Below are positions 4,998 to 18,665 of a stretch of DNA of 64,000 nucleotides, piece after piece (positions within the stretch are counted from its first letter, which is position 1; every line of letters begins with the position of its first letter). Source of the DNA: Thermococcus sp. P6 (GTDB taxonomy: Archaea; Methanobacteriota_B; Thermococci; Thermococcales; Thermococcaceae); the NCBI RefSeq assembly GCF_002214525.1, contig NZ_CP015104.1, positions 1,054,001-1,118,000 of the forward strand. Reading direction: 5' to 3'. The notes beneath the pieces are model-generated. The model did not search any database and was not told the DNA's origin. It saw nothing but the letters and a program-made list of their open reading frames with translations. The position numbers were made by a program, and so were the translations under genes.

Positions 4998-5505
4998 CTA
5001 CGAGAGGCTCGTTTCAGAGATAACTGAAAAGGCCCCCTACGCGGAAGGAAAGGTCCGGAGGGAGAGGAGGATAGAGTTCAGGGTTCCCGCGGACAGGGTG
5101 AGGGAGTTCCTCGAACTGCTTAAGGATAAGGCCTTTGAGCTCCTGCTCCAGATCACGGCCGTTGACTGGCCCGACAGGGGAGAGATCGAGCTCATCTATC
5201 AGGTCTTCAGCATAACCCACGGAACGCACACCTTCGTAAGAACTTCCATACCGAGGGAGGATGCGGTTATATCAACCGTCAGGGACGTCTATCCCGCTGC
5301 CGAGACCTACGAGAGAGAAGTTCACGACTTCTTCCAGGTGGTCTTCGAGGGGAACCCGAAGATCGAGATGCCATGGATACTGGAGGACATAGACAAGGAA
5401 CAGGGGCTATCCTACAGGAAGGACTTTGACCTTCTCGGCTACGTGAAGAGGAAGTACGGGACACTGGACAGGTACGATGAGGATAAGGACTACTACGTTA
5501 TCTGA
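4990..5505 (+). CDS. mbxK: MBS subunit K (NuoC family)
   Basis: This is a 171-residue NuoC/30-kDa-subunit homologue. The family signature is visible around residues 75-135: ITAVDWPDRGEIELIYQVFS, then ISTVRDVYPAAETYEREVHD and FGV-type motifs. I chose the ATG at 4990 (MTDYERLV), which overlaps the mbxJ stop, over an in-frame GTG slightly upstream. The protein has no cofactor ligands. It binds the L and J subunits in the peripheral arm. Confidence 0.9.
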   Translation: MTDYERLVSEITEKAPYAEGKVRRERRIEFRVPADRVREFLELLKDKAFELLLQITAVDWPDRGEIELIYQVFSITHGTHTFVRTSIPREDAVISTVRDVYPAAETYEREVHDFFQVVFEGNPKIEMPWILEDIDKEQGLSYRKDFDLLGYVKRKYGTLDRYDEDKDYYVI

Positions 5506-5515
5506 GGTGATGATG

Positions 5516-6691
5516 ATGGTCTCAGAGAGCGAGCTTATTAAGGAGGCAAGGGAGAACGGGATGGACCTTCTGCCGCTGGGTAAGGACACCTACGAGCTTC
5601 TATTCGGTCCCCAGCACATGGCAACCGAGAACTACAGCCTGATCCTCAAAATGGACGGTAATAGGGTCGCTAAAGCCATAGCAAACCCCGGCTTCCTCCA
5701 CAGGGGTTTCGAGAAACTGGCCGAGTACAGGCCGTGGCACACGAACATAGCCCTTCTCCTGAGGATCTGCGTTCCAGAGTCGGACGTACCCGAGAACATC
5801 TACTCCATGGCCGTTGAGGAGATACTCGGATGGGAGATTCCCGAGAGGGCCCAGTGGATAAGGACAACCGTCCTTGAGATGGCCAGAGTCTCAGCCTACC
5901 TGTTCTGGATCATGGGGATGTCCTTCAAGCTCGGTGTCTACACAGCAGGTCAGTGGGCCGTGGCCTACCGTGAGAGGCTCCTGGCCCTCTTCGAGCAGCT
6001 CACGGGGGCGAGGGTGTACCACATCTACACGGTCCCTGGAGGTGTCAGGCGGGACATCCCGGGCGATGCCTGGCTCCGCAGACTCGGGGATACCGTCGAA
6101 TACATAAAGGACAAACTGAAGGACTTCGATGAGATACTCTTCGAGAACTACATCTCCCACCGCAGGCTTGAGGGCATAGGCGTGATGGACAGGAAGTTCG
6201 CCCTCGAAGAGGGCGTCACCGGTCCCAACCTCCGCGCCACAGGTGTTCCCTACGACGTAAGGCGCGTCGATCCGTACCTCCTCTACCCGGAGCTCGACTT
6301 CGAGGTCCCCGTGCTCAGGGAGGGAGACGCCCTCGCGAGGTTCCTCGTGAGGAGATACGAGCTCGAACAGGACCTCTACATCCTCGAACAGCTTCTTGAT
6401 ATGGGGCCGCCGGATGGACCCCACATGGTCAGCGATCCGAGGCTAAAGAACCTGCCGAGGTTTAAGGTGCCCGAAGGGGACGCCTTCGCCCACGTCGAGA
6501 GTTCCAAGGGTGATTTTGGGGCATACGTGGTCAGCAACGGCAAGAACAAACCCTACAGGGTGCACGTCAGGGGACCGAGCATAGCCCACGGTATCAGGGT
6601 GATAGAGCAGCTTCTCGTCGGGGCGAGAATAGCCGACGTGCCCGTGATACTGACGAGTCTTGACAACTGCCCACCGGATATAGACAGGTGA
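5516..6691 (+). CDS. mbxL: MBS catalytic-arm subunit L (NuoD / large hydrogenase-like, degenerate NiFe site)
   Basis: This is a 391-residue homologue of the NuoD/[NiFe]-hydrogenase large subunit. The region HRGFEKLAEYRPW matches the family. At the two places where hydrogenases carry CxxC nickel ligands, this protein has RICVPES (Cys85, then Glu) and DNCPPD (Cys385, then Asp), so only the first cysteine of each pair remains. That is incompatible with a normal NiFe centre and agrees with the sulfane-reductase assignment. Three ATGs follow the RBS GAGGTGAT. I chose the last (MVSESELI), but 5510 and 5513 are possible. The gene overlaps mbxN as TGATG. Confidence 0.92.
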   Translation: MVSESELIKEARENGMDLLPLGKDTYELLFGPQHMATENYSLILKMDGNRVAKAIANPGFLHRGFEKLAEYRPWHTNIALLLRICVPESDVPENIYSMAVEEILGWEIPERAQWIRTTVLEMARVSAYLFWIMGMSFKLGVYTAGQWAVAYRERLLALFEQLTGARVYHIYTVPGGVRRDIPGDAWLRRLGDTVEYIKDKLKDFDEILFENYISHRRLEGIGVMDRKFALEEGVTGPNLRATGVPYDVRRVDPYLLYPELDFEVPVLREGDALARFLVRRYELEQDLYILEQLLDMGPPDGPHMVSDPRLKNLPRFKVPEGDAFAHVESSKGDFGAYVVSNGKNKPYRVHVRGPSIAHGIRVIEQLLVGARIADVPVILTSLDNCPPDIDR

Positions 6692-7708: not shown

Positions 7709-8658
7709 TGACACTTACGAAGGCCGAGCTCAATGTGCTTTTAGAGATTGAGGAACCCATAACGTTAAGGGGGTTATCTGAGAAGCTCGACCTCTCAAAG
7801 AGTACGCTCTCATCGACCCTTCACTCCCTTGAGAGAAAGGGCCTCGTCGAGCTCGAAGGGAAGAAGCCGATAACAGTTAAGCCTGCGGAGAACAATGTAA
7901 TTGAGCTCCTGAGAAGGATTATCATGGAGTATCCTCACGTAAACGCCGCACCCATCCTCACAGGGAACCGCCTCAAAGTTCTCGCAGCCCTTGAAGTTGA
8001 AAACCCCCAGCCCCTCTGGCTCATCCAGTTAAGGACGGGAGTGAGCAGGGCGACGCTCCACAGGATTCTCAACGGGCTTATGGAAGCTCTCATCGTGGGA
8101 AAGAGAGACAGAGGCTACTTCCTGAGTGAGCGATTTGCTCCCTTCAAAGCCTTCGCTGACGAGTACTTTTACCTTCAGAACTCGATTAAAGCGAAGGAGT
8201 TTGACCCCGGCGCCTCACCTGTTTGGAGTGGTGTGGAGGAGCTGATACTCGCGACCGGGAACTTCAAGGGGGAGAGTGTTGGCGGCTTTCAGCTCACCGG
8301 ACTCGCCCGCTTCTCCGACTTTGGCCTTCCACTCATCTCGTCAGGGATTTACCATTATTACTGGCCTTCGAGAGGATTGAGCATTGAGGAGGTCGCTGTG
8401 CACACCTTGACGGTCGGAAGGGATGCAAGGGAGCTGCTTTACACCATCGTTCTCCTTAAGGGTAAAGATTTTGATGAACGCAAACTCAGGAGGCTCTCCG
8501 CCAAGTTTGGTGTTTCCTCCACCGTAGAGGAACTGCTCGAATATCTTAAGGGTATGGATAAACCGTATCCCTTCCCGTCAAGGGAGGAAGTCGAGGAGCT
8601 CTGCAGGCAATATTTTGGGGGGTGTAAGAATGATAACAAGGGACAGACTGATCCGTGA
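7708..8658 (+). CDS. Two-wHTH regulator, putative antitoxin of an AbiE-like pair
   Basis: This is a 316-residue protein with two winged-helix segments: residues about 5-55 (LRGLSEKLDLSKSTLSSTLHSL) and about 85-130 (QLRTGVSRATLHRILNGLME). The C-terminal part from about 150 is not recognised. It ends inside the next gene with a 29-base overlap. An HTH protein translationally coupled to a nucleotidyltransferase is the arrangement of type IV (AbiEi/AbiEii-like) toxin-antitoxin and HTH-MNT modules, in which the HTH protein represses its own promoter. The upstream palindrome fits that. The antitoxin role is inferred from context, and a plain regulator is possible. Confidence 0.65.
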   Translation: MTLTKAELNVLLEIEEPITLRGLSEKLDLSKSTLSSTLHSLERKGLVELEGKKPITVKPAENNVIELLRRIIMEYPHVNAAPILTGNRLKVLAALEVENPQPLWLIQLRTGVSRATLHRILNGLMEALIVGKRDRGYFLSERFAPFKAFADEYFYLQNSIKAKEFDPGASPVWSGVEELILATGNFKGESVGGFQLTGLARFSDFGLPLISSGIYHYYWPSRGLSIEEVAVHTLTVGRDARELLYTIVLLKGKDFDERKLRRLSAKFGVSSTVEELLEYLKGMDKPYPFPSREEVEELCRQYFGGCKNDNKGQTDP

Positions 8659-9358
8659 GTTTGCCCTGCTTGATGAGAAGGCTTGGCTCATGGGTTCAGA
8701 GGAGATCCGTGTTTACCTCATCGGAGGCGGGAACCTCGCTTTGAGAGGCATAAAACCGGCAACTGCGGATGTTGACGTAATAGTTGAGGATTACAGGAGT
8801 TTGAAAGCCCTTGATTCCATCCTTACAGATCCATCTCCAGAGCTGAGGACGAGCGGTGGAATCGTGGTTTACCTGAAGGTCTTTGGACATGAGTATGAGG
8901 AAAAACTTGGCGCTGATTCGGTTTATCAAAAGATTGACCCAGAAACGGGCAACTTTAACCTTGACGTTTTCGTAAAGCGCGTCATGAGAGGTATCCAACT
9001 GACCGAGGGGATAAAAAGTCGGTCCCTTGTGTCCGAGGAGTTTCAGGAGCTGAAACGGTTAAGGGTTTATCTCGTTTCCCTTGAGGACATCTTTTTGTTC
9101 AAGGGCGTTACATCGCCTGGCCGTTCAAAGGACGTTGATGATATCCTGCGGATCCTCGAAGCCGGGGTTGACTTTAATGTGATCCTCGACGAGATCAAAG
9201 CTCAGAGGAGGGTAATCGAATCTGAAAGATCTGGACGCCTTGCGGCTGTTTTCCTTGAAAAGATGGAAGGTGTTCGGGAAATTCTAAGGGGAAGGGGTCT
9301 GAGGAGTCTTGGGCTGGATAATTTCATTGATTCTCTTGAGGAATTGTTATCCGGATAA
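8630..9358 (+). CDS. Nucleotidyltransferase-fold protein, putative AbiEii-like toxin
   Basis: This protein has 242 residues if it starts at ATG 8630, which follows the strong RBS GGGGGGTG at 8617-8624; an in-frame TTG lies at 8615. The nucleotidyltransferase signature is visible near residues 29-50: LIGGGNLALRG, then a DVDVIV pair of metal-binding aspartates, with a third acidic residue in NLDVF. A later motif, SLEDIFLFKGVTSPGRSKDVDDI, resembles the K...R..D segment of AbiEii/MenA-type toxins. The partner is the overlapping HTH gene. I infer a tRNA- or protein-modifying growth-inhibiting enzyme. A plain DUF6036-type nucleotidyltransferase annotation would also be correct. Confidence 0.7.
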   Translation: MITRDRLIREFALLDEKAWLMGSEEIRVYLIGGGNLALRGIKPATADVDVIVEDYRSLKALDSILTDPSPELRTSGGIVVYLKVFGHEYEEKLGADSVYQKIDPETGNFNLDVFVKRVMRGIQLTEGIKSRSLVSEEFQELKRLRVYLVSLEDIFLFKGVTSPGRSKDVDDILRILEAGVDFNVILDEIKAQRRVIESERSGRLAAVFLEKMEGVREILRGRGLRSLGLDNFIDSLEELLSG

Positions 9359-9436: not shown

Positions 9437-12400
9437 ATGGAGCTCGAGAGGAGAATTGAAAATATTCTAAAGGAGCTCACTCCGGAGACGAAACCGGAAG
9501 AGGCAATAAGGATTTTCAGGGACCTTTTTAAGGAAGCATGGGGGTTCGCATACGCGGACGAAACCATAAACCTCCAGCAGATTGAGGATTCAACGGTCGG
9601 GGAACTCACCCGGCTGCTCAAGGTCATAGGGAGGAGCAAGCCCCCGGCAGGGGAGAGCTTCCACGTCTTCTATGCTAAAAGCCCGAAGAAGGGCGGGGAC
9701 ACCGTAAGGTACAGGCAGAGGCTGGTAAGGTATCTAATCAACATCACCGATTCGATCGATCTGGAGTTTGCAAACTTCCTCGTTATCGTTGATTACTTCG
9801 GATACTGGAAGCTCCTCGTCCCGGTGTACAGAAAGGAAGTCGAAAGAACCAGAATCAACGTATATACCATCGACCCTGCTGCAGGGAAATTCCGGACGCT
9901 GGTCAAGAACATGGCGGAAGTTGGGAGGGCCATCCGGGAAAAGAAAAGACTCACGGCGAGCGATATAAAGGAGATAATCGATGAGCACATGCAGGTCAGG
10001 CCCCTGACGGAAGAGTTCTTCCGGGACTACAGGAGGTACTACTACAGGCTCAAGGATGAGATAAAGAGGCTTTACGGAAAAGAACTGGAGGAAGCCTATA
10101 GGGGTGATCTCAAAAAGGAGATCTTCGTCGAGAGGGCAACCAAAACCTTTGCCCACACCTTCCTAAACAGGTTGATGTTCGTTTACTTCCTCCAGAAAAA
10201 GGGGTGGATCGTTGAAAAAGGGACCCTCAGAAGGGATCTCAGGGAGAGGGTGGACGTTAAGAACTTCGTGAGATGGCTTTACGAAAACTACAGGGAGCAC
10301 GGCGGGGAGTTCTACAGGGACTACCTCAGGGTTCTCTTTCTCCACGCTATGAACGGGCCCAGAGGAGTTACGCCCGCAGGGACAACGAGGAGATAAAAAG
10401 GGTCCCGTCTGAGGACGTCAGGGACGTCTTCTTCTACGGCGTTCCCTACTTCAACGGCGGCCTTTTTGCCCGTGTTAAGCTCGAGAACGTTGATCTGGAC
10501 GGTATAATCTCCTCCCTTCCGGAGGATCTCGTGAAAGAGATTGTCTTCGAGTTCTTTGAGGCCTACAACTTCACTGTAACAGAGGAGACGCCCTACGAGG
10601 TTGAGGTTGCCGTTGACCCGGCGATGCTCGGTAAGATCTACGAATCGCTCATAGCCGAGGAGGAGAAGGCCCTTGAGGAGGAAGAGAGGAGGGTCTCCGG
10701 GATCTTCTACACGCCGAGGGCCGAAGTGGACTTCATGTGCAGGATGGCGGTTTACGAGTACCTCCGGAGAAACCTCGAGGTGGACGATAGGCTCCTCAGG
10801 GAGTTCGTCTTTAAGCCGCTTCACGAGTGGGAGCCGAGAGCTTTACCCCGGGAGCTTGTTACGGCCCTTGAAGACGTTAAGATAGTTGACCCGGCAGCCG
10901 GAAGCGGGGCCTTTCTCGTCGGGATGTACCACCTTTTAACGGAGCTCTACGAGAAGGCCAACCTTTCGGTTGACTACGACAGGAAGCTCGAGATAATCAG
11001 GGAGAACATCTACGGGGTTGACGTGAAGGAGTGGGCCATAAGGGTTGCGAAGCTGAGGCTCTGGCTGGCGCTCATCGAGGATGAGGAGAGGATCCCCAAC
11101 GAACCGATTCTGCCGAACCTCGAGACGAAGCTGAAGGTCGGCGACTCCCTCGCACCGCCCCACTTTATCCTCAAGATTGACAGCCGGAAGAAGGTGGTCG
11201 AGATTCCGCTGGCCAGATTCAGGGAGAGCCTCAAGCTCCTCTGGGCGAAGGGGGGTATGGGTGAGGCCATGGTGGCCTACAGGGAGCTCGTGAGAAAGTA
11301 CTACATGGGTGAGAGAATAGACGGCAGACCCGTTACCTTCGAGGACATCGAGAGGGCCAGATGGGGCGTTCTTCAGGAGTTCCTTGAGGGGGCACTCGAG
11401 GAACTCAAAGCCCGGGAAAGGAAGGATATTAACCTGCTCCTCGAGGCCGTCAGGAACGAAAACCTCTCGGCCCTTGAGAAGCCTCCCTTCATCTGGGAGC
11501 TGGACTTTCCGGACGTGATGCTCGAGAAGAGGGGCTTTGACATCGTTATAGCGAACCCTCCCTACGTAAGGCAGGAGAGGATATACCCTGAACAGTACGA
11601 TCTGGCGGAGTTCGGGATGCTCGGCAAAAGGGAGCAGGAAAAACTTAGAAAGGATTACAAGAATAAGATAATCAGTCACATGGAGACCCTGATAAGGGAG
11701 AAGTTCGGGCACGAGATGAAGCTTCCGAAGAGGAGCGACCTCTATGTGTACTTCTTCATACAGGGCGTCAACCTTCTGAATCCAAAGGGTTCGCTGATTT
11801 TCATCACCTCCAACTCGTGGCTGGACGTTGACTTCGGAAAGGCCCTGCAGGAGTTCTTCCTCAGGTTCACCCATCTGAGGGCGGTTATTGACTACACGAG
11901 GAGGAGCTTCGAGCAGGCGGACGTTAACACCGTCATCACGGTTCTGACGAGGAAACCAAAGGGGCTCTTCAACACCGTTGGGACGGAGTGCGTGAACTTC
12001 GTCCTTCTGAAGAGGGACTTCGGGGAGCTTGGACTTAATGTTATCGACAGACTGCTCGAGTGCTACGCGGGAAAGGTCGATGGAGTTGAGGTCTTCGGGG
12101 GGAAGGTTTACAGTTACGAGGACGACGAGCTGAGGGTGAGGAGCGTTAGGGCCGTGGAGTTAGCGAAGATGGGAGGCCTGAGCATCGGGAAGATGAACCA
12201 GATCCTGAGGGCCTACAACGTCTCGGGCGAGTACGAGGGGATGAAGTGGGGTGGAATACTCATCAGGGCTCCGGGGATATTCTACGTGATCCTCCGGAAG
12301 GGAAAGGGAAAACTGGTGAGGCTCGGAGATATCGCCGAGGTCAGATTCGGCATAAAAACGGGAGCGAACGAGTTCTTCTACCTTGAGCCGATTAAGAACC

Positions 12401-13290
12401 CTGTGGAGTGGCCGGTCTGTCAGGTTTGCGGAAGGGTTCATAAACCGGACGAGGGGTTAATTGCCGTGAGGAACAAGGCTGGATGGGAGGGCTACATCGA
12501 GGAGGAGTTCTTGAGGCCTGTCATAGTAAGTCCCCGTGAAATCAAAAAAGCTTTGGTTGATGTTTACGGATTAAAGATGAGGGCATTAATCTGTAACGAA
12601 CCTTTAGATTCGTTAAAGGATAAACTAAAGGTTCATGTTCTGAATTACATTAGATGGGGGGAACACATGGGTTATCCCGAGCGAAGAACTCTTAAGAGTA
12701 GAAAACCTTGGTACAAATTAGTCCCACATGATACTCCAGATGTTTTATGGCCAATGATACACAACGATCGGCTAATTGTTGGGATGTTACGAAACAAAGA
12801 TATTGTAGTTGATCATAATCTCTTTGAAATAAAAGCCAATAAAAACGAATCGCCTCTTGTTCTTTTTGTGTCTTTGTTTTCGACTTATCAGGCACTCATT
12901 AGAGAACTTCTCGGGCGTTCAAATCTCGGAGAGGGGGCATTAAAAACTGAGGGCATTGACATTAAAAAACTCATTGTCTTCAAAAAAGAAGCTTTAGCTG
13001 GATCTATGGATCAGTTAAACCAGATTGTCAGAAAATTAGGGGATTATAAAATCAAATCCATCTTCGAAGAACTCGGCCTGCCGAAGCCCAACCGCGACCT
13101 GAGCAACATCAACCCCGATGATGTGTCCCTCGATAGGATCATGCCGGACAGAAGGGAGCTCGACAGGGTCGTCTTCGAGGCCCTCGGGTTAACGGAGGAG
13201 GAGCAGCTGGAGGTTTACAGGGCCGTTGTCGAACTCGTGAAGGCGAGGCTGGTGAAGGCGAGGACGTTCAAGAAGAAAAAGCGGAAATGA
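9437..13290 (+). pseudogene. Type IIG / PglX-like adenine DNA methyltransferase, frameshifted
   Basis: Two reading frames together encode one protein of about 1280 residues. The first starts at ATG 9437 behind AAGGATG and makes about 307 sensible residues to HAMNG, then runs into nonsense and stops at 10396. The second frame takes over sensibly at about 10360 (QRSYARRDNEEIKRVP). Loss of one base in GGGCCC at 10355-10360 explains the break. The second part carries SAM motif I (DPAAGSG, about 10888) and the N6-adenine catalytic motif NPPY at 11554-11565. The C-terminal half should hold the target recognition domain, where bases about 12540-13070 are strikingly AT-rich. I saw no convincing PD-(D/E)XK nuclease in the N-terminal part. 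Real decay, an assembly error or recoding cannot be separated here. Confidence 0.8.
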
Positions 13291-13351
13291 TGCCGGACCA
13301 CTCCCAAGATTGGATGCGGCCGATAGATTAGATGGAGGGCCTCCAGAAGGC

Positions 13352-13942
13352 TTAGAGTTCCCTAATAACCTCCTCAATACACTCGATTACGGTATTTCTC
13401 TGAGTTCTTAAAATATATTTTAAGGTCCCATTGTTGGAATCTTCAAGTAACCGCTCTATTGATTCGTACTTTTTCAAAGATTTAACAGCCTGTTCTTTCT
13501 TGGAGAAATCCACAGGCTCCTCTATGCGTCCCTGTTTGATCTTCGTATTGTTGCTAAGGTCGTAGTCGGCGGCGTTTCTGAGTCCCCTTAAATACATAAT
13601 GGAGTTGTGCGCCTGTCTCAGCTTGAGGTCCTTGACCCTATGTTTTAATTTTTCTAAAAACAGCGCCACGGCCTTATGCGATCTCGGTCCGTCAAGTTCA
13701 TTCAAAAAATCTTCAAGGCTTCCTCTGGAACGGGTATTCGTGGGATAACTGTTTAGCTCGACTTTTAGAACTTTTCTGAGTTGCAAAAAGGCAGAATAGT
13801 AATATCTTCCAACAATGGTCCTATTAACGGCATCGGATGGGGGGAGCTCTGGATCATTACGCGTTTCCGATGGGGTTTTATCAGACAGACGCAGCAGGTA
13901 GTCTCCAACATGCTTAAACCCCTTTGGATCAAAGCCGGGCAT
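13352..13942 (-). CDS. Unknown protein, possibly HEPN-like, third gene of an opposite-strand trio
   Basis: This is a 196-residue, mostly helical, charged protein. Residues about 40-62 (RTIVGRYYYSAFLQLRKVL) and 118-128 (RGLRNAADYDL) resemble the two conserved helices of HEPN-superfamily proteins, including an R..ADYD motif. The classical RxxxxH nuclease motif is not evident, so I hold the assignment loosely. The start ATG follows GGTGGGG, and the gene lies 12 bases behind its upstream neighbour, so the three minus-strand genes probably form one transcript. Base composition is clearly more AT-rich than the housekeeping genes. It ends convergently with the methyltransferase. Confidence 0.6.
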   Translation of the reverse strand: MPGFDPKGFKHVGDYLLRLSDKTPSETRNDPELPPSDAVNRTIVGRYYYSAFLQLRKVLKVELNSYPTNTRSRGSLEDFLNELDGPRSHKAVALFLEKLKHRVKDLKLRQAHNSIMYLRGLRNAADYDLSNNTKIKQGRIEEPVDFSKKEQAVKSLKKYESIERLLEDSNNGTLKYILRTQRNTVIECIEEVIREL

Positions 13943-13954
13943 GTTCCCCCACCG

Positions 13955-14446
13955 TCATTCAAAAAACGAGTATACCAGTATCCTGTTCGATATATCGGGA
14001 TCAGCAGTGAGGATTTTGTATTCTAACTCCTCTGAGAGGTCGACGACGTTTTCGGCGTCAGCAGAAAATCTGACGATGAGAATCACGTGGGGGCTGAAGC
14101 CTTCTTCCGGAGCGCCTCCGGTAATTTTCACATATTTGATCTCAGGCATCTTCAAAAACTTGGGAAGAAGGTTAGTTAAGTACTGATAGGTATTCAGGTA
14201 TTGATTAATGTGTCTCCGGTCCGATACAAGTAATTCAATAAGAGCTTCGTCATCGATTTTAAGTTTTCCCGAATACTTCTTCTCCAGTTCTTTTAATCTG
14301 AATAGGGGCATTAGTATCTTTAAGAGCCGTTTAAGTTCTTCATTAATTCTGGCATAACTTTCCGTAGAGGCATCCTCCAAAAGAACAACATCACGATCTT
14401 TTTCAAAGAATAACCACTGGTCTGCCACCTTAGCTGACATCGCCAT
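13955..14446 (-). CDS. Unknown 163-residue protein, middle gene of the trio
   Basis: I do not recognise this protein. The N-terminal half is helical and charged (SYARINEELKRLLKILMPLF, then RLKELEKKY). The C-terminal half looks like beta strands with SPHVILIVRFSADAENVVDL. There is no signal peptide or membrane segment. The ATG lies inside the end of the upstream gene with a 17-base overlap, behind GAGGTG, so the two are translationally coupled. AT-rich composition and location between a methyltransferase and a nuclease-helicase suggest an accessory or regulatory part of the defence locus. Confidence 0.6.
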   Translation of the reverse strand: MAMSAKVADQWLFFEKDRDVVLLEDASTESYARINEELKRLLKILMPLFRLKELEKKYSGKLKIDDEALIELLVSDRRHINQYLNTYQYLTNLLPKFLKMPEIKYVKITGGAPEEGFSPHVILIVRFSADAENVVDLSEELEYKILTADPDISNRILVYSFFE

Positions 14447-14999
14447 CTTTGAGCACCTCGTTTAATATTTCCCGAAACTTCTTCAGGTCGTTTTTTGTTA
14501 TTATGAAATTCACAGTATTCGGTTTTTTGGATCGCATGTGCTCAATTTTCAGGAGGTAATACTCCAAAGGCTCATCGATGTTTAGTGTCGCTCTATACAG
14601 GTTGATCCCGTCAACGACTGGAATTGAATATTCCCTTTTAAGTTTGGCCTTTGTTCTCATATCCGGAACGTTAAATTTTTCAAACACTTTTTTTTCAAAT
14701 TCATTTTCGGGCTGTTTTTCATTAAATATGAGTTCGCCCAGCGTTCCAAGTATCCTCTTTGTAGCGAGATTAACGTACTTTTTCTCCTGATCTGGGGGTA
14801 TTCCTAACTCCCTCAGGTATGGGCGTATCTCGCCAGTTGAAACCGAAAGCCCGACCTCCCCCTCACCACTCACGATAGCCTTTAAATTCGTAAGTGACAG
14901 GATCTTTTCTATAACCCCGCTTACCTTGGATTCGTCAGTGGGAGTTTCCTCGTATTCAACAAGTTTTTGGAGAAGTTTAATGAGGTCACTGTCTGCCAT
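14430..14999 (-). CDS. Unknown 189-residue protein, first gene of the trio
   Basis: The family is not recognised. I take ATG 14999 (MADSDLIKLLQ), preceded by GGGTGTGAG, over an in-frame start 15 bases upstream. The N-terminus is helical and acidic. Residues about 125-150 (YSIPVVDGINLYRATLNID) look like strands, and the C-terminus is a charged helix. It overlaps the next gene. A TATA-like TTTTTAAGAG lies about 30-45 bases upstream on the minus strand (15031-15043), giving a very short leader. Local GC in one 60-base line (14461-14520) is about 28 percent by hand count, well below the rest of the window. Confidence 0.6.
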   Translation of the reverse strand: MADSDLIKLLQKLVEYEETPTDESKVSGVIEKILSLTNLKAIVSGEGEVGLSVSTGEIRPYLRELGIPPDQEKKYVNLATKRILGTLGELIFNEKQPENEFEKKVFEKFNVPDMRTKAKLKREYSIPVVDGINLYRATLNIDEPLEYYLLKIEHMRSKKPNTVNFIITKNDLKKFREILNEVLKDGDVS

Positions 15000-15074
15000 A
15001 GAACTCACACCCACACACTTTTACATAACTACTCTTAAAAACATTTCGACAATTCCAGATAACGAATCCACTGT

Positions 15075-15118: not shown

Positions 15119-15245
15119 TCACTTTGTTCAGCACGCGTAACGGCATATTAAGCGTCGAGGTGCTTTGAGCGAAGGACGATCCGGATGGAGGGAGTAAGAA
15201 ATTTTATTAGAGTCCTATCAAATGTAATGATGGAAGGTGATTCTT

Positions 15246-18200
15246 ATGTCCGCGATCGGCCTTCTCAATAAATACGGTCTCGTTGATAACCAGAGGGTAA
15301 AGCTCCTCGATGTTCTAAGGGAAGTTTTAACGTCCGGAAACTACAGGAAGGTAGACGTTGCGGTCGGCTTTCTCTTCGTGAGCGGATTGAAGGAGATTCA
15401 GGGAGAGCTTGATGAATTTTTCTCACGGGGAGGGAAGATGAGGATAATGATCGGAAACCAGACGAACAGGGAAACCTACGAACAGCTCAGCATGGCTTAC
15501 CACTCCCTCGAAACTTTAAGGAAGCTCAAGGAACGGAACCGGTGGGCCGAAACCACTCCGGGGGAGCAGGTTGAGGATCTGGAGAAAAACGTCAACTTCA
15601 TGGAGCAGAACCGGGAAAACGAGGAGTTTTTGGATAGGCTTATCGGATGGCTGGAAAGCGGGAGCATTGAGATCCGGGTTTACACGAAGGAGTTCATGCA
15701 CGCCAAGGCCTACCTCTTTTATCCGGAAAGTGAGTCCATCTCCCCGGTCGGCCTCGTCGGTTCGAGCAACTTCAGCCTCGCCGGACTTTACGGGAACACC
15801 GAGCTGAACGCCGGGCTTTTCTCGGTTCATTTTGAGAGTCTGAGGGAATGGTACGAGGCGCTGTGGGAGGAGGCCGAACCCTTCAGTCCCCTTCTCATAG
15901 ACGTTATCAAAAGGGGCTGGCCCGGTCAGAAGCCGGGGAACTTCCCCTCCCCCTACGAGGTTTTCATAAGGGGTCTTTACGAGCTCTACAGGGAGGTTGT
16001 GGACAGGGATTCCGGCTTCCTCGTGAGGAACCTTCACGACGTTCTTTACGACTTTCAGATGGACGCCGTCAGGAGGGGCATATCCATTGTAAATAAGTAC
16101 GGTGGAGTTCTGATAAGCGATGTCGTCGGGCTGGGGAAGAGCTACATTGGTCTCGCCATTCTGGAACACTTCTCCCTGCTGGATCTGCTCAACGGAAGGT
16201 CGAAGGGAGTGGCCGTAATCGCTCCCCCCGAGCTCGTTGGCTACTGGCGGGAACTCCTCGGGACATATAACGTTGAGGGAAGGGTTTTCTCCGCCGGGTT
16301 GCTTCCGAGAAAAGAAACTTCCGGAGAAAAGTACGGGGAGATGGAGAATTACATAAGGAATCAGGCAAACACCGTTCTGGTAGATGAATCCCATCACTAC
16401 GCAAACCCCTCGACCAAGTCCTACAAAAACCTTCAGGAGCTCCTGATCGGAAAGAGGGTGATCTTACTTACGGCGACCCCATACAGGAGGCAGTACCGTG
16501 ACATCATAAATCAGATCCGCCTTTTCAGGCCCGAGAGGAGGCATCCCTTCCCGATAACACCCCAGACGTGGGATGACCTCATCAGGGCGATTGAAAAGGG
16601 GAACGTGGATCCTTCCTACGTCCTCAGGGAGATCATGGTGAGGAGAACCAGACACGACATCTTAAGGCTCTACGGAGGAAAGGAGGGCTGCATTAAGGCG
16701 GGGAAGAAAAGGCTCTGCTTCCCAGACAGGAAGCTGAAGAGCATTGAGTACGGAATATCCGAGGTCTATCCGCTGGAGAAGGTCCCTCCGGAGCTTCTGG
16801 ACGAGATCTCAAGGGGTTCGAACATCGAGCCGGTTGACATCTACACCCTCTTTCTTGCCGGCATAAACTCCATGAAGTACGCGAGGTTCGCGCTCTATGA
16901 CTACGTAAAACCGCAGTTCAGGGATAAGTCCCCTTACGTAGACCTTTCCGTCGGGAGAAACCTGAGAGGGCTGGAAAGGATCCTTTACCTCAAAAGGCTG
17001 GAGAGTTCGTGGTACTCGATGTATCAGACTCTCAGGAGGGACATCATCAAAACCGAGAACTTCCTGAGATTCGTAAAGCACGGGTTCATTCCTGCGGGGG
17101 ATGAGTTTGATGAGGTCCTGCTCGGCGGTCTAAATAAAGAACCGCACGTTCTGGACGATGGGGAAATAATGGATTTCATTGAAAAATACAGGAAAACAAA
17201 AGAGCCGGAATACAAGAAGGGCGCTTTTAACTTAAATAGACTTATCTCGGATCTGGAACACGATCTGAGGAAATTGAAAGCCATGGAAGAAGTATTAAGA
17301 CCCCTTAAGGAGGGCCTTGAAGAGAATCCGGAGAAGGACCCAAAGCTGTCAAAGCTGGCCTCGTTGATAGATGAGCTGATGCAACCGCGGAGGAAGATAC
17401 TCATCTTCAGTGAATTCGAGGAGACCGTCCGGTGGATCTACAAAGGACTGGAAAGGCTCGGCTACACCCGGAATTACAGGATAGAAATGGTGAGCTCCAG
17501 TACGAAGGGAATAGCGGATAAAGTCAGACGCTTTGCACCCCGGTCGAACAACTACGAGACCGAGGATGAGATCGACGTACTGATATCCACGGACGTCCTC
17601 AGTGAGGGACTCAACCTGCAGGACGCGAACGTAGTCATAAACTACGACCTGCACTGGACGCCGATAAAGCTCATCCAGAGAATAGGCAGAGTTGACAGGA
17701 TCGGAACCGGGCATGATGAGATACTCGTTTACAATTTCTTCCCGGAAAAAGGACTGGAGGAGAACCTTGGCCTCCTTGAAAAGGTCAGGAGAAGGATAAC
17801 CGAGTTCAACAACGCGCTGGGTGCCGATGGCAAAATCCTTGAGGAGAGCGAGGAATGGAACCCTTCAGCCCTCGAAGCGATATATGGGGGAAACATTGAA
17901 GAACTTGAGAAGGGTGTCGAAACCCTTACGGTAACCACCCTTGCGGAGAAGCTCGTGAGGGAGTTCAGGGAGGGACACAAAAACCGGTTTGAGGAGATAA
18001 TAAAGAGACACTCCATGAGAAGCGTGGTTAGGTATCCGGGCTCCGACTATTATGCATTTTTCGTTTGCAGCGATGGAATAATGGCCCAGAACTTCATATA
18101 CCGGAAGAAGGGGGATAAATGGATATCCGAAAACATGCCACTTGAGAAACTTCTGGACCTCACGGGATTAACGGAGAAATCCCGGCCATTCAATGGATTC

Positions 18201-18665
18201 AAGGATATGGGAATATACTATGAAGCTGCGGAGAGGGCATTGGACGAGTTCAGGGAGCTCCGCACTATAAAAACAAGTACGTTAACCTTCAAGAAACGCC
18301 GCAGGAATCCCGAGAAAATTAAACGAATCCTGAAAAAACTCAAAGCCGCAAAACTCAAAGCGAAGACGGATTCCGATAGGTACTACCTAAGCCAGCTCCT
18401 TGATCTTGTTAGATGGGGGTATGCAAACCATGAGCTCTTCGCCAGGGCGCTCAGAGAGATCAATCCCAGCATGGCATCGGACAGGGTGGTCAGGGCCTGT
18501 GAGGCATTGATAGTAAAATATCAGATCTCATCATGGAAACAGCAGGTAGAAGCCCGGAGAAGGGAACTGGGCGAGAAAGGCATTAAGCCCCATATCGTAT
18601 CCGGCATCCTATTCGTTCCCACCCTGCCGGATTACCCCGAAGCCGGCGCGGGAACCAAACCCTGA
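15246..18665 (+). CDS. PLD nuclease-SNF2 helicase fusion, putative restriction/defence effector
   Basis: This 1139-residue protein starts at ATG 15246 behind GGAAGGTGA; an in-frame GTG at 15237 is less likely. The N-terminal 200 residues form a phospholipase-D-type nuclease domain with HAK at residue 152 and GSSNFS at 172. A superfamily-2 helicase follows: Walker A GLGKS near 295, DESHH at 380, TATPYRR at 409, and the motif VI-like RIGRVDRIG near 812. The last 300 residues are unassigned. This fusion recurs beside large adenine methyltransferases in prokaryotic defence islands. The role here is inferred as ATP-driven recognition or cutting of foreign DNA. A TATA box (AATTTTATTA) lies near 15200. 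Confidence 0.85.
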   Translation: MSAIGLLNKYGLVDNQRVKLLDVLREVLTSGNYRKVDVAVGFLFVSGLKEIQGELDEFFSRGGKMRIMIGNQTNRETYEQLSMAYHSLETLRKLKERNRWAETTPGEQVEDLEKNVNFMEQNRENEEFLDRLIGWLESGSIEIRVYTKEFMHAKAYLFYPESESISPVGLVGSSNFSLAGLYGNTELNAGLFSVHFESLREWYEALWEEAEPFSPLLIDVIKRGWPGQKPGNFPSPYEVFIRGLYELYREVVDRDSGFLVRNLHDVLYDFQMDAVRRGISIVNKYGGVLISDVVGLGKSYIGLAILEHFSLLDLLNGRSKGVAVIAPPELVGYWRELLGTYNVEGRVFSAGLLPRKETSGEKYGEMENYIRNQANTVLVDESHHYANPSTKSYKNLQELLIGKRVILLTATPYRRQYRDIINQIRLFRPERRHPFPITPQTWDDLIRAIEKGNVDPSYVLREIMVRRTRHDILRLYGGKEGCIKAGKKRLCFPDRKLKSIEYGISEVYPLEKVPPELLDEISRGSNIEPVDIYTLFLAGINSMKYARFALYDYVKPQFRDKSPYVDLSVGRNLRGLERILYLKRLESSWYSMYQTLRRDIIKTENFLRFVKHGFIPAGDEFDEVLLGGLNKEPHVLDDGEIMDFIEKYRKTKEPEYKKGAFNLNRLISDLEHDLRKLKAMEEVLRPLKEGLEENPEKDPKLSKLASLIDELMQPRRKILIFSEFEETVRWIYKGLERLGYTRNYRIEMVSSSTKGIADKVRRFAPRSNNYETEDEIDVLISTDVLSEGLNLQDANVVINYDLHWTPIKLIQRIGRVDRIGTGHDEILVYNFFPEKGLEENLGLLEKVRRRITEFNNALGADGKILEESEEWNPSALEAIYGGNIEELEKGVETLTVTTLAEKLVREFREGHKNRFEEIIKRHSMRSVVRYPGSDYYAFFVCSDGIMAQNFIYRKKGDKWISENMPLEKLLDLTGLTEKSRPFNGFKDMGIYYEAAERALDEFRELRTIKTSTLTFKKRRRNPEKIKRILKKLKAAKLKAKTDSDRYYLSQLLDLVRWGYANHELFARALREINPSMASDRVVRACEALIVKYQISSWKQQVEARRRELGEKGIKPHIVSGILFVPTLPDYPEAGAGTKP

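Follow-up and report, generated by a model that had tools for sequence, protein, structure and literature searches.

Evidence for cassette exchange of an AT-rich target recognition segment in a type IIG/IIL-like methyltransferase of Thermococcales

The window, i.e. the whole stretch of 64,000 nucleotides analysed here (G000:C1:1054001-1118000), belongs to a genome of 1.52 Mb in one contig. A reading made from the sequence alone had placed a single methyltransferase gene at 9437-13290, but this region holds two overlapping open reading frames on the plus strand in different frames, ORF A (9437-10396) and ORF B (10273-13290). While most relatives encode the enzyme in a single frame of 1284-1349 aa, the window gene is split, with the frame break lying at approximately 10340-10396 (plus strand), where both frames are open together. 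ORF A is homologous to the N-terminal ~310 residues of these one-ORF relatives, in which its counterpart is the nuclease/spacer part. Its residues 180-306 match the PADLOC IIG profile, while a Pfam search of ORF A returned no match and no conserved PD...ExK was seen by eye in the N-terminal part of a 14-row alignment. The frame break may be a real lesion or a sequence error. Since the reading frame is broken, the activity of the window copy is uncertain, and judged from its sequence it may not be a working restriction enzyme.

ORF B encodes an adenine methyltransferase domain, a target recognition domain (TRD) and a C-terminal tail. It matches the Pfam families Eco57I (7.8e-31) and MmeI_Mtase (1.1e-13) as well as the PADLOC profile REase_MTase_IIG (7.3e-53). 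Residues 206-215 (10888-10917) read DPAAGSGAFL, which we take to be the SAM-binding motif and of which DPAAGSGAF falls in invariant columns of alignment A1; the catalytic NPPY motif occupies residues 428-431 (11554-11565), where the columns N428-Y431 are likewise invariant. Two features of IIG/IIL enzymes, a Gamma-class N6-adenine methyltransferase with SAM motif and NPPY and a C-terminal TRD in the same polypeptide, were found. The predicted methyltransferase fold matched that of BrxX (9ewz_C, Z 20.7, rmsd 4.1, 344 residues aligned) and CamA (8cxs_A, Z 22.3, rmsd 19.6, 417 aligned). The confidence of the structure prediction is low (pLDDT of 62 for the whole protein and 49.7 for the TRD alone), so that the trustworthy part of the predicted structures is the methyltransferase fold only, and the TRD fold is not confirmed by the model. 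A sequence search for TRD relatives among solved structures found none, the best match having an E-value of 0.35.

The TRD region consists of two parts. The first (residues 691-750, 12343-12522) usually stays with the backbone, although it has also been replaced in three relatives (G038, G005 and G094) and partly in a fourth (G008). The second (residues 751-930, 12523-13062) is the AT-rich segment that profiles, identity, trees and composition mark as an exchangeable cassette. Within it, residues 783-921 match PF22837 (M_Eco57I_C) at 8e-4, below the gathering score, and the C-terminus of the PADLOC MTase_II profile at 3.7e-14; the latter profile is matched by 9/9 members of the TRD alignment. 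As these type II methyltransferase C-terminal profiles cover residues 783-921, the AT-rich island does lie in the specificity region, as had been proposed. It is followed by a GC-rich, conserved C-terminal tail (residues 931-1005, 13063-13287), which forms the common right edge of the exchanges described below and is 81-91% identical to the window in amino acids in 16 of the 17 relatives, compared with 39% in the distant G074.

The island itself is sharply delimited. Its 540 bp have a GC content of 0.369 (37%) and a fourfold-site GC of 0.358, while the flanking parts of ORF B have a GC content of 0.56 (10543-12522) and 0.58 (13063-13287). In sliding windows, GC falls from 0.55-0.57 before ~12500 to 0.367 (12600-12899) and has returned to 0.53 by 13000-13299. 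Fourfold-site GC is 0.72 in the core of the gene versus 0.36 in the island, and the island's GC3 of 0.30 compares with 0.77 expected from the codon use of the gene's own core (z -14.9). GC at codon positions 1 and 2 changes only modestly, from 0.44 to 0.38; the shift is mostly synonymous, being confined almost entirely to third codon positions. In 20 genes of 600 aa or more from a 400 kb sample of this genome, the internal 540 bp GC contrast reaches at most 0.108, in another IIG-like gene, compared with 0.188 in the methyltransferase gene. Windows as AT-rich as the island make up 35 of 1825 in-gene 540 bp windows in the same sample. The sequence-only reading had described this island with edges at 12535 and 13065 and GC-rich coding resuming in the same frame; its existence is confirmed by the sliding GC, the codon use and a contrast beyond that of any other sampled long gene, its edges agree with the points at which identity to relatives breaks (12523-12535 on the left and ~13057-13063 on the right), and one reading frame runs unchanged through the island and both flanks.

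To place the segment among its relatives, 61 genomes of the genus, the window's own included, were searched, and 115 genomes of the phylum for the TRD. A full-length ortholog is present in nine other genomes of the genus, with more orthologs in further genera. In a windowed comparison of nine relatives, most amino acid identities to the window lie at 60-100% outside the segment. Within its limits, G006 and G051 reach 57-93%, and the remaining seven 14-57%. Alignment reveals conserved flanks with a very different centre in seven of nine relatives, while G006 and G051 share the centre. The right edge at ~13060 is sharp in all, and the left edge lies at ~12525 in most, at ~12330 in G038 and G094 and at ~11560-11600 in G005.

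Pairwise identities among 16 aligned sequences (120 pairs) point in the same direction. Wherever two cores are at least 90% identical, as in eight pairs, the TRDs share just 22-41% and the tails 83-93%, these pairs coming from three clades and not representing eight independent events. Conversely, the TRD is more alike than the core in six of the 120 pairs, and distant backbones repeatedly carry TRDs of the same type. In approximately unbiased (AU) tests on groups picked after the identity matrix had been seen, the core data rejected monophyly of the TRD types (p 1e-65 to 1e-67), and the TRD data rejected monophyly of the core clades (p 6e-7 and 5e-6). The clearest single case is a ~420 bp tract at 12641-13062 shared by G110 and G093, which belong to different genera: 402 of 419 positions (95.9%) are identical in DNA, compared with 75.0%, 75.8% and 76.3% in three neighbouring stretches, which makes it a recent cross-genus transfer of the cassette. 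In G006 and L046, one of the six pairs in which the TRD is the more alike, the core is 47% identical, the TRD 80% and the tail 90%. L046 is a contig (MAG) labelled Aciduliprofundum with a diverged core and a Thermococcus-like TRD and tail; it is possibly a cross-phylum exchange or a chimeric assembly.

These comparisons strongly support real and frequent exchange of the segment among Thermococcales orthologs, and the proposal that the region is exchanged by recombination between orthologs is borne out by the conserved flanks, the dissimilar centre, the tree conflict and the 95.9% tract. The alternative that there is no exchange, and that point mutation under pressure from viruses simply makes the TRD evolve fast, would fit the hypervariability of the TRDs and the fact that all of them align as distant homologs. 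It does not account for the abrupt edges, the near-identical TRDs in diverged backbones or the conflict between the trees, and is contradicted by the G110/G093 tract within flanks of ~75% identity, which leaves it extremely improbable. Combined, we consider it very probable that the enzyme is a type IIG/IIL-like (Eco57I/MmeI/PglX-related) N6-adenine methyltransferase, that the island is the main part of its TRD and that the TRD segment acts as an exchangeable cassette in Thermococcales, these statements being judged jointly.

In the mechanism we propose, a very different TRD would be swapped in by homologous recombination within the conserved coding stretches that flank the segment, with the right edge always at ~13060 and the left edge usually at ~12525, sometimes at ~12330 or 11560-11600. 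The catalytic core and the tail would remain, and the in-frame exchange would yield a working enzyme with a new target. We infer that the recognised motif follows the TRD type. Because one TRD directs the whole enzyme, a single exchange of this kind would change the methylated and the defended sequence together. Recoding of MmeI has reportedly been described by Morgan and Luyten, and Furuta and Kobayashi are said to have described TRD movement between non-orthologous proteins. A joint change of methylation and defence has been argued for MmeI-family enzymes in the available part of PMC4833311.

The sequence-only reading had further regarded the island as a recent replacement in this genome, which the comparison with the two relatives sharing the window's TRD does not support. 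Relative to G006, amino acid identity is 71-72% in the TRD versus 79% in the core, with a fourfold-site identity of 0.45 in both; relative to G051, it is 71-72% versus 76%, with fourfold-site identities of 0.36 (core) and 0.38 (TRD). The two therefore share the TRD at near-flank identity, and its fourfold sites are as saturated as those of the core. The nearest TRD to the window's is 72% identical in amino acids, no closer donor was found in the 115 genomes of the phylum, and the next-best TRDs there reach at most 33% identity (38% over part of the domain in G038). The reading had itself named two observations as speaking against it, relatives that share the centre and AT-rich centres throughout the family, and both were largely made: G006 and G051 share the centre, and the centre is AT-rich in 18/18 aligned sequences, so that AT-richness gives no date for the exchange. 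A recent replacement of the window's TRD from an AT-rich donor would agree with the fourfold-site GC of 0.36 versus 0.72 in the core, with the frequency of exchange in relatives and with the one recent transfer documented elsewhere in the family. However, TRDs of the same type in G006, G051 and L046 are equally AT-rich, fourfold sites are as saturated in the G006 and G051 TRDs as in the core, and no near-identical TRD occurs in the 115 genomes, and we regard this reading as unlikely. On the present sequences, whether the window lineage or the other lineages did the swapping cannot be polarised. The case also carries the caution that GC content alone does not date a swap.

What, then, keeps the cassette AT-rich? 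The TRD lies below the core, or below the expectation from it, in GC, fourfold GC and GC3 in each of the 18 aligned sequences. Conservation or variability as such was rejected as a cause: in the core, fourfold GC is 0.74 in variable and 0.71 in conserved columns, while the conserved TRD columns are AT-rich (0.25, 40 sites). In addition, the drop in GC3 starts with the exchange edge, falling from 60-80% to ~38% at 11593 in G005 and setting in at 12313 in G038 and at ~12553 elsewhere. Upstream of the TRD, 21 low-identity blocks have a mean ∆GC3 of -0.27 compared with +0.01 in 471 others (p 1e-7), and without G005, 12 blocks have -0.20 compared with +0.02 in 448 (p 0.005), the blocks in both comparisons not being independent. 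Three low-identity upstream blocks (in G018, G008 and G110 at 12013) are exceptions and are not AT-rich. This suggests that low GC3 tracks the replaced tract and not a fixed position in the protein, and that the cassettes come from an AT-rich pool.

Two explanations that keep the AT-richness in place have to be weighed. Selection on AT-rich codons (slow translation for folding, or mRNA structure) or relaxed selection on a variable domain, which would have no bearing on the origin of the cassettes, is consistent with AT-richness in all 18 sequences whatever the host composition and with its persistence across saturated synonymous divergence within one TRD type. The GC-rich variable core columns and AT-rich conserved TRD columns argue against it, as does the shift of the AT-rich stretch with the exchange edge in G005 and G038, and it appears improbable. 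Alternatively, GC-biased gene conversion could keep recombining DNA high in GC while the TRD, whose divergence would prevent internal recombination, drifts towards an AT-rich balance, which likewise predicts that AT-richness follows the diverged tract. Against this, the Thermococcus-like stretches of L046 outside the cassette are GC-rich (fourfold GC of 0.74 and 0.91, the latter in the tail) and the tract common to G110 and G093 is AT-rich in both, so that the composition of imported stretches looks inherited from the donor; we consider biased conversion quite improbable.

Throughout the family, the replaced tracts accordingly retain their AT-rich codon usage over the long term, and an AT-rich reservoir is the simplest reading of this. 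Specifically, we tentatively propose that TRD cassettes circulate via such a reservoir (plasmids, low-GC hosts or solitary methyltransferase genes of AT-rich composition) and that their re-import outpaces any reshaping by host codon usage, the GC3 trace marking tract and break points; this may be so, at somewhat less than an even chance. Candidates are a stretch of the Thermococcus profundus plasmid with 45% GC and solitary methyltransferases that are AT-rich throughout (0.35-0.45 GC) and have a TRD of distant homology. The proposed reservoir was not found in phage, plasmid or viral-contig searches: tblastn with the TRD gave no match in 50,697 phage records and four matches in 72,556 plasmid records, among which the T. 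profundus plasmid gave the best (35% identity) and none was a donor, while a scan of the viral_contigs set found nothing with the TRD alignment and six distant relatives with the whole enzyme. If the proposal is true, the third-position GC trace could find specificity swaps in single genomes, offering a possible compositional test for swaps.

TRD exchange itself is a known kind of evolution, and the lasting codon-usage signature is the one unusual trait here. In Helicobacter pylori, exchange or domain movement of TRDs is established for type I, III and IIG specificity genes, according to the available parts of PMC3077401 and PMC3983042. As in the H. pylori systems outlined there, conserved flanks enclose exchangeable target recognition sequences that fall into homology types, with recombination at the flanking conserved DNA. 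In contrast to those accounts, the present case concerns one TRD in the fused C-terminal domain of an archaeal methyltransferase, exchange reaches across genera and possibly phyla, the replaced tract keeps its AT-rich codon usage, and the window genome holds no second copy of the TRD. A search of G000 returned a single match at E ≤ 0.001, so the second or silent TRD copy expected of a phase-variable (shuffling) specificity locus was not found there. Bacterial restriction systems are well known to switch specificity; this hyperthermophilic archaeal enzyme adds a case with sharp edges, cassette types repeated across genera and one recent transfer, and its natural pairs with near-identical cores and different TRDs are ready for linking TRD sequence to recognised motif. 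A literature search at title level, which carries no claim of absence, turned up nothing on AT-rich TRDs or on exchange of TRDs in Thermococcales. An archaeal survey tabulates the restriction-modification systems of 44 Thermococci genomes, as far as the accessible part of PMC10609329 goes.

Like the MmeI-family IIL/IIG enzymes and TkoI/TkoII, as portrayed in the parts of PMC4833311 and PMC8172983 at hand, the window enzyme combines a Gamma-class adenine methyltransferase with a C-terminal TRD and a helical tail. Unlike them, going by the same parts, it has no clear PD-(D/E)XK motif seen in its N-terminal part and its gene has an HKD-SNF2 helicase gene as a linked neighbour. TkoI and TkoII of T. 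kodakarensis are characterised IIL enzymes that recognise GTGAAG and TTCAAG (PMC8172983, available part). TkoI is only weakly similar to the window enzyme; in its gene (L017, assigned via coordinates in the same part of PMC8172983), a milder drop in GC follows the catalytic domain. The resemblance to BREX PglX/BrxX, as these are presented in the accessible portions of PMC11341690 and PMC12839542, covers the methyltransferase domain, which is similar in profile and fold, and the presence of a helicase gene in the locus. However, the scores of 72 bits against the BREX-1 PglX model NF033452 (cut-off 500) and 59 against NF033451 (cut-off 400) do not reach the family level of BREX PglX. None of the eight window proteins that were profile-scanned matched PglZ, in a scan not dedicated to PglZ.

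The HKD(PLD)-SNF2 helicase gene lies at 15237-18665 on the plus strand. Among the related loci taken in (L032-L053 and L084-L090), such a gene follows the methyltransferase in 18 of 22; of the four without it, L033 and L050 are contigs that end early, L041 has a distant methyltransferase and L087 is a broken second copy. Methyltransferase and helicase thus form a widespread pair of genes that enclose variable cargo. Besides Thermococcales, the pair was seen in one viral contig and in contigs labelled Proteobacteria, Melainabacteria and Dehalococcoidia. A joint methyltransferase and helicase-nuclease system in which the TRD would set the target of both is plausible. In the window, the cargo comprises three small AT-rich genes on the minus strand, a HEPN-like gene at 13352-13942 (PADLOC 1.8e-5) and two genes at 13955-14446 and 14430-15014. 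The three occur together in L032, L040 and L087 and partly in L039, with other genes elsewhere. Five loci (L035, L037, L038, L039 and L040) have a gene pair directly before the helicase; on the T. profundus plasmid, its second gene carries the annotation AbiEii/AbiGii nucleotidyl transferase. In the window, a DUF6036 nucleotidyltransferase at 8615-9358 is present instead of this pair.

The T. profundus plasmid itself is a contig of 38,045 bp (G018 C2), identical over the 19 kb compared. In its locus (L037:4839-5806), ~770 bp of the N-terminal coding region (5037-5804) lie in inverted orientation at their original position. The ends of the inversion showed no long inverted repeat, and the inverted part keeps an open frame; this may be a DNA inversion switch or a single rearrangement event. 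Finally, the window's genome carries a second IIG-like gene at G000:C1 ~1365654-1369173, with an in-frame stop and an AT-rich 3' part.
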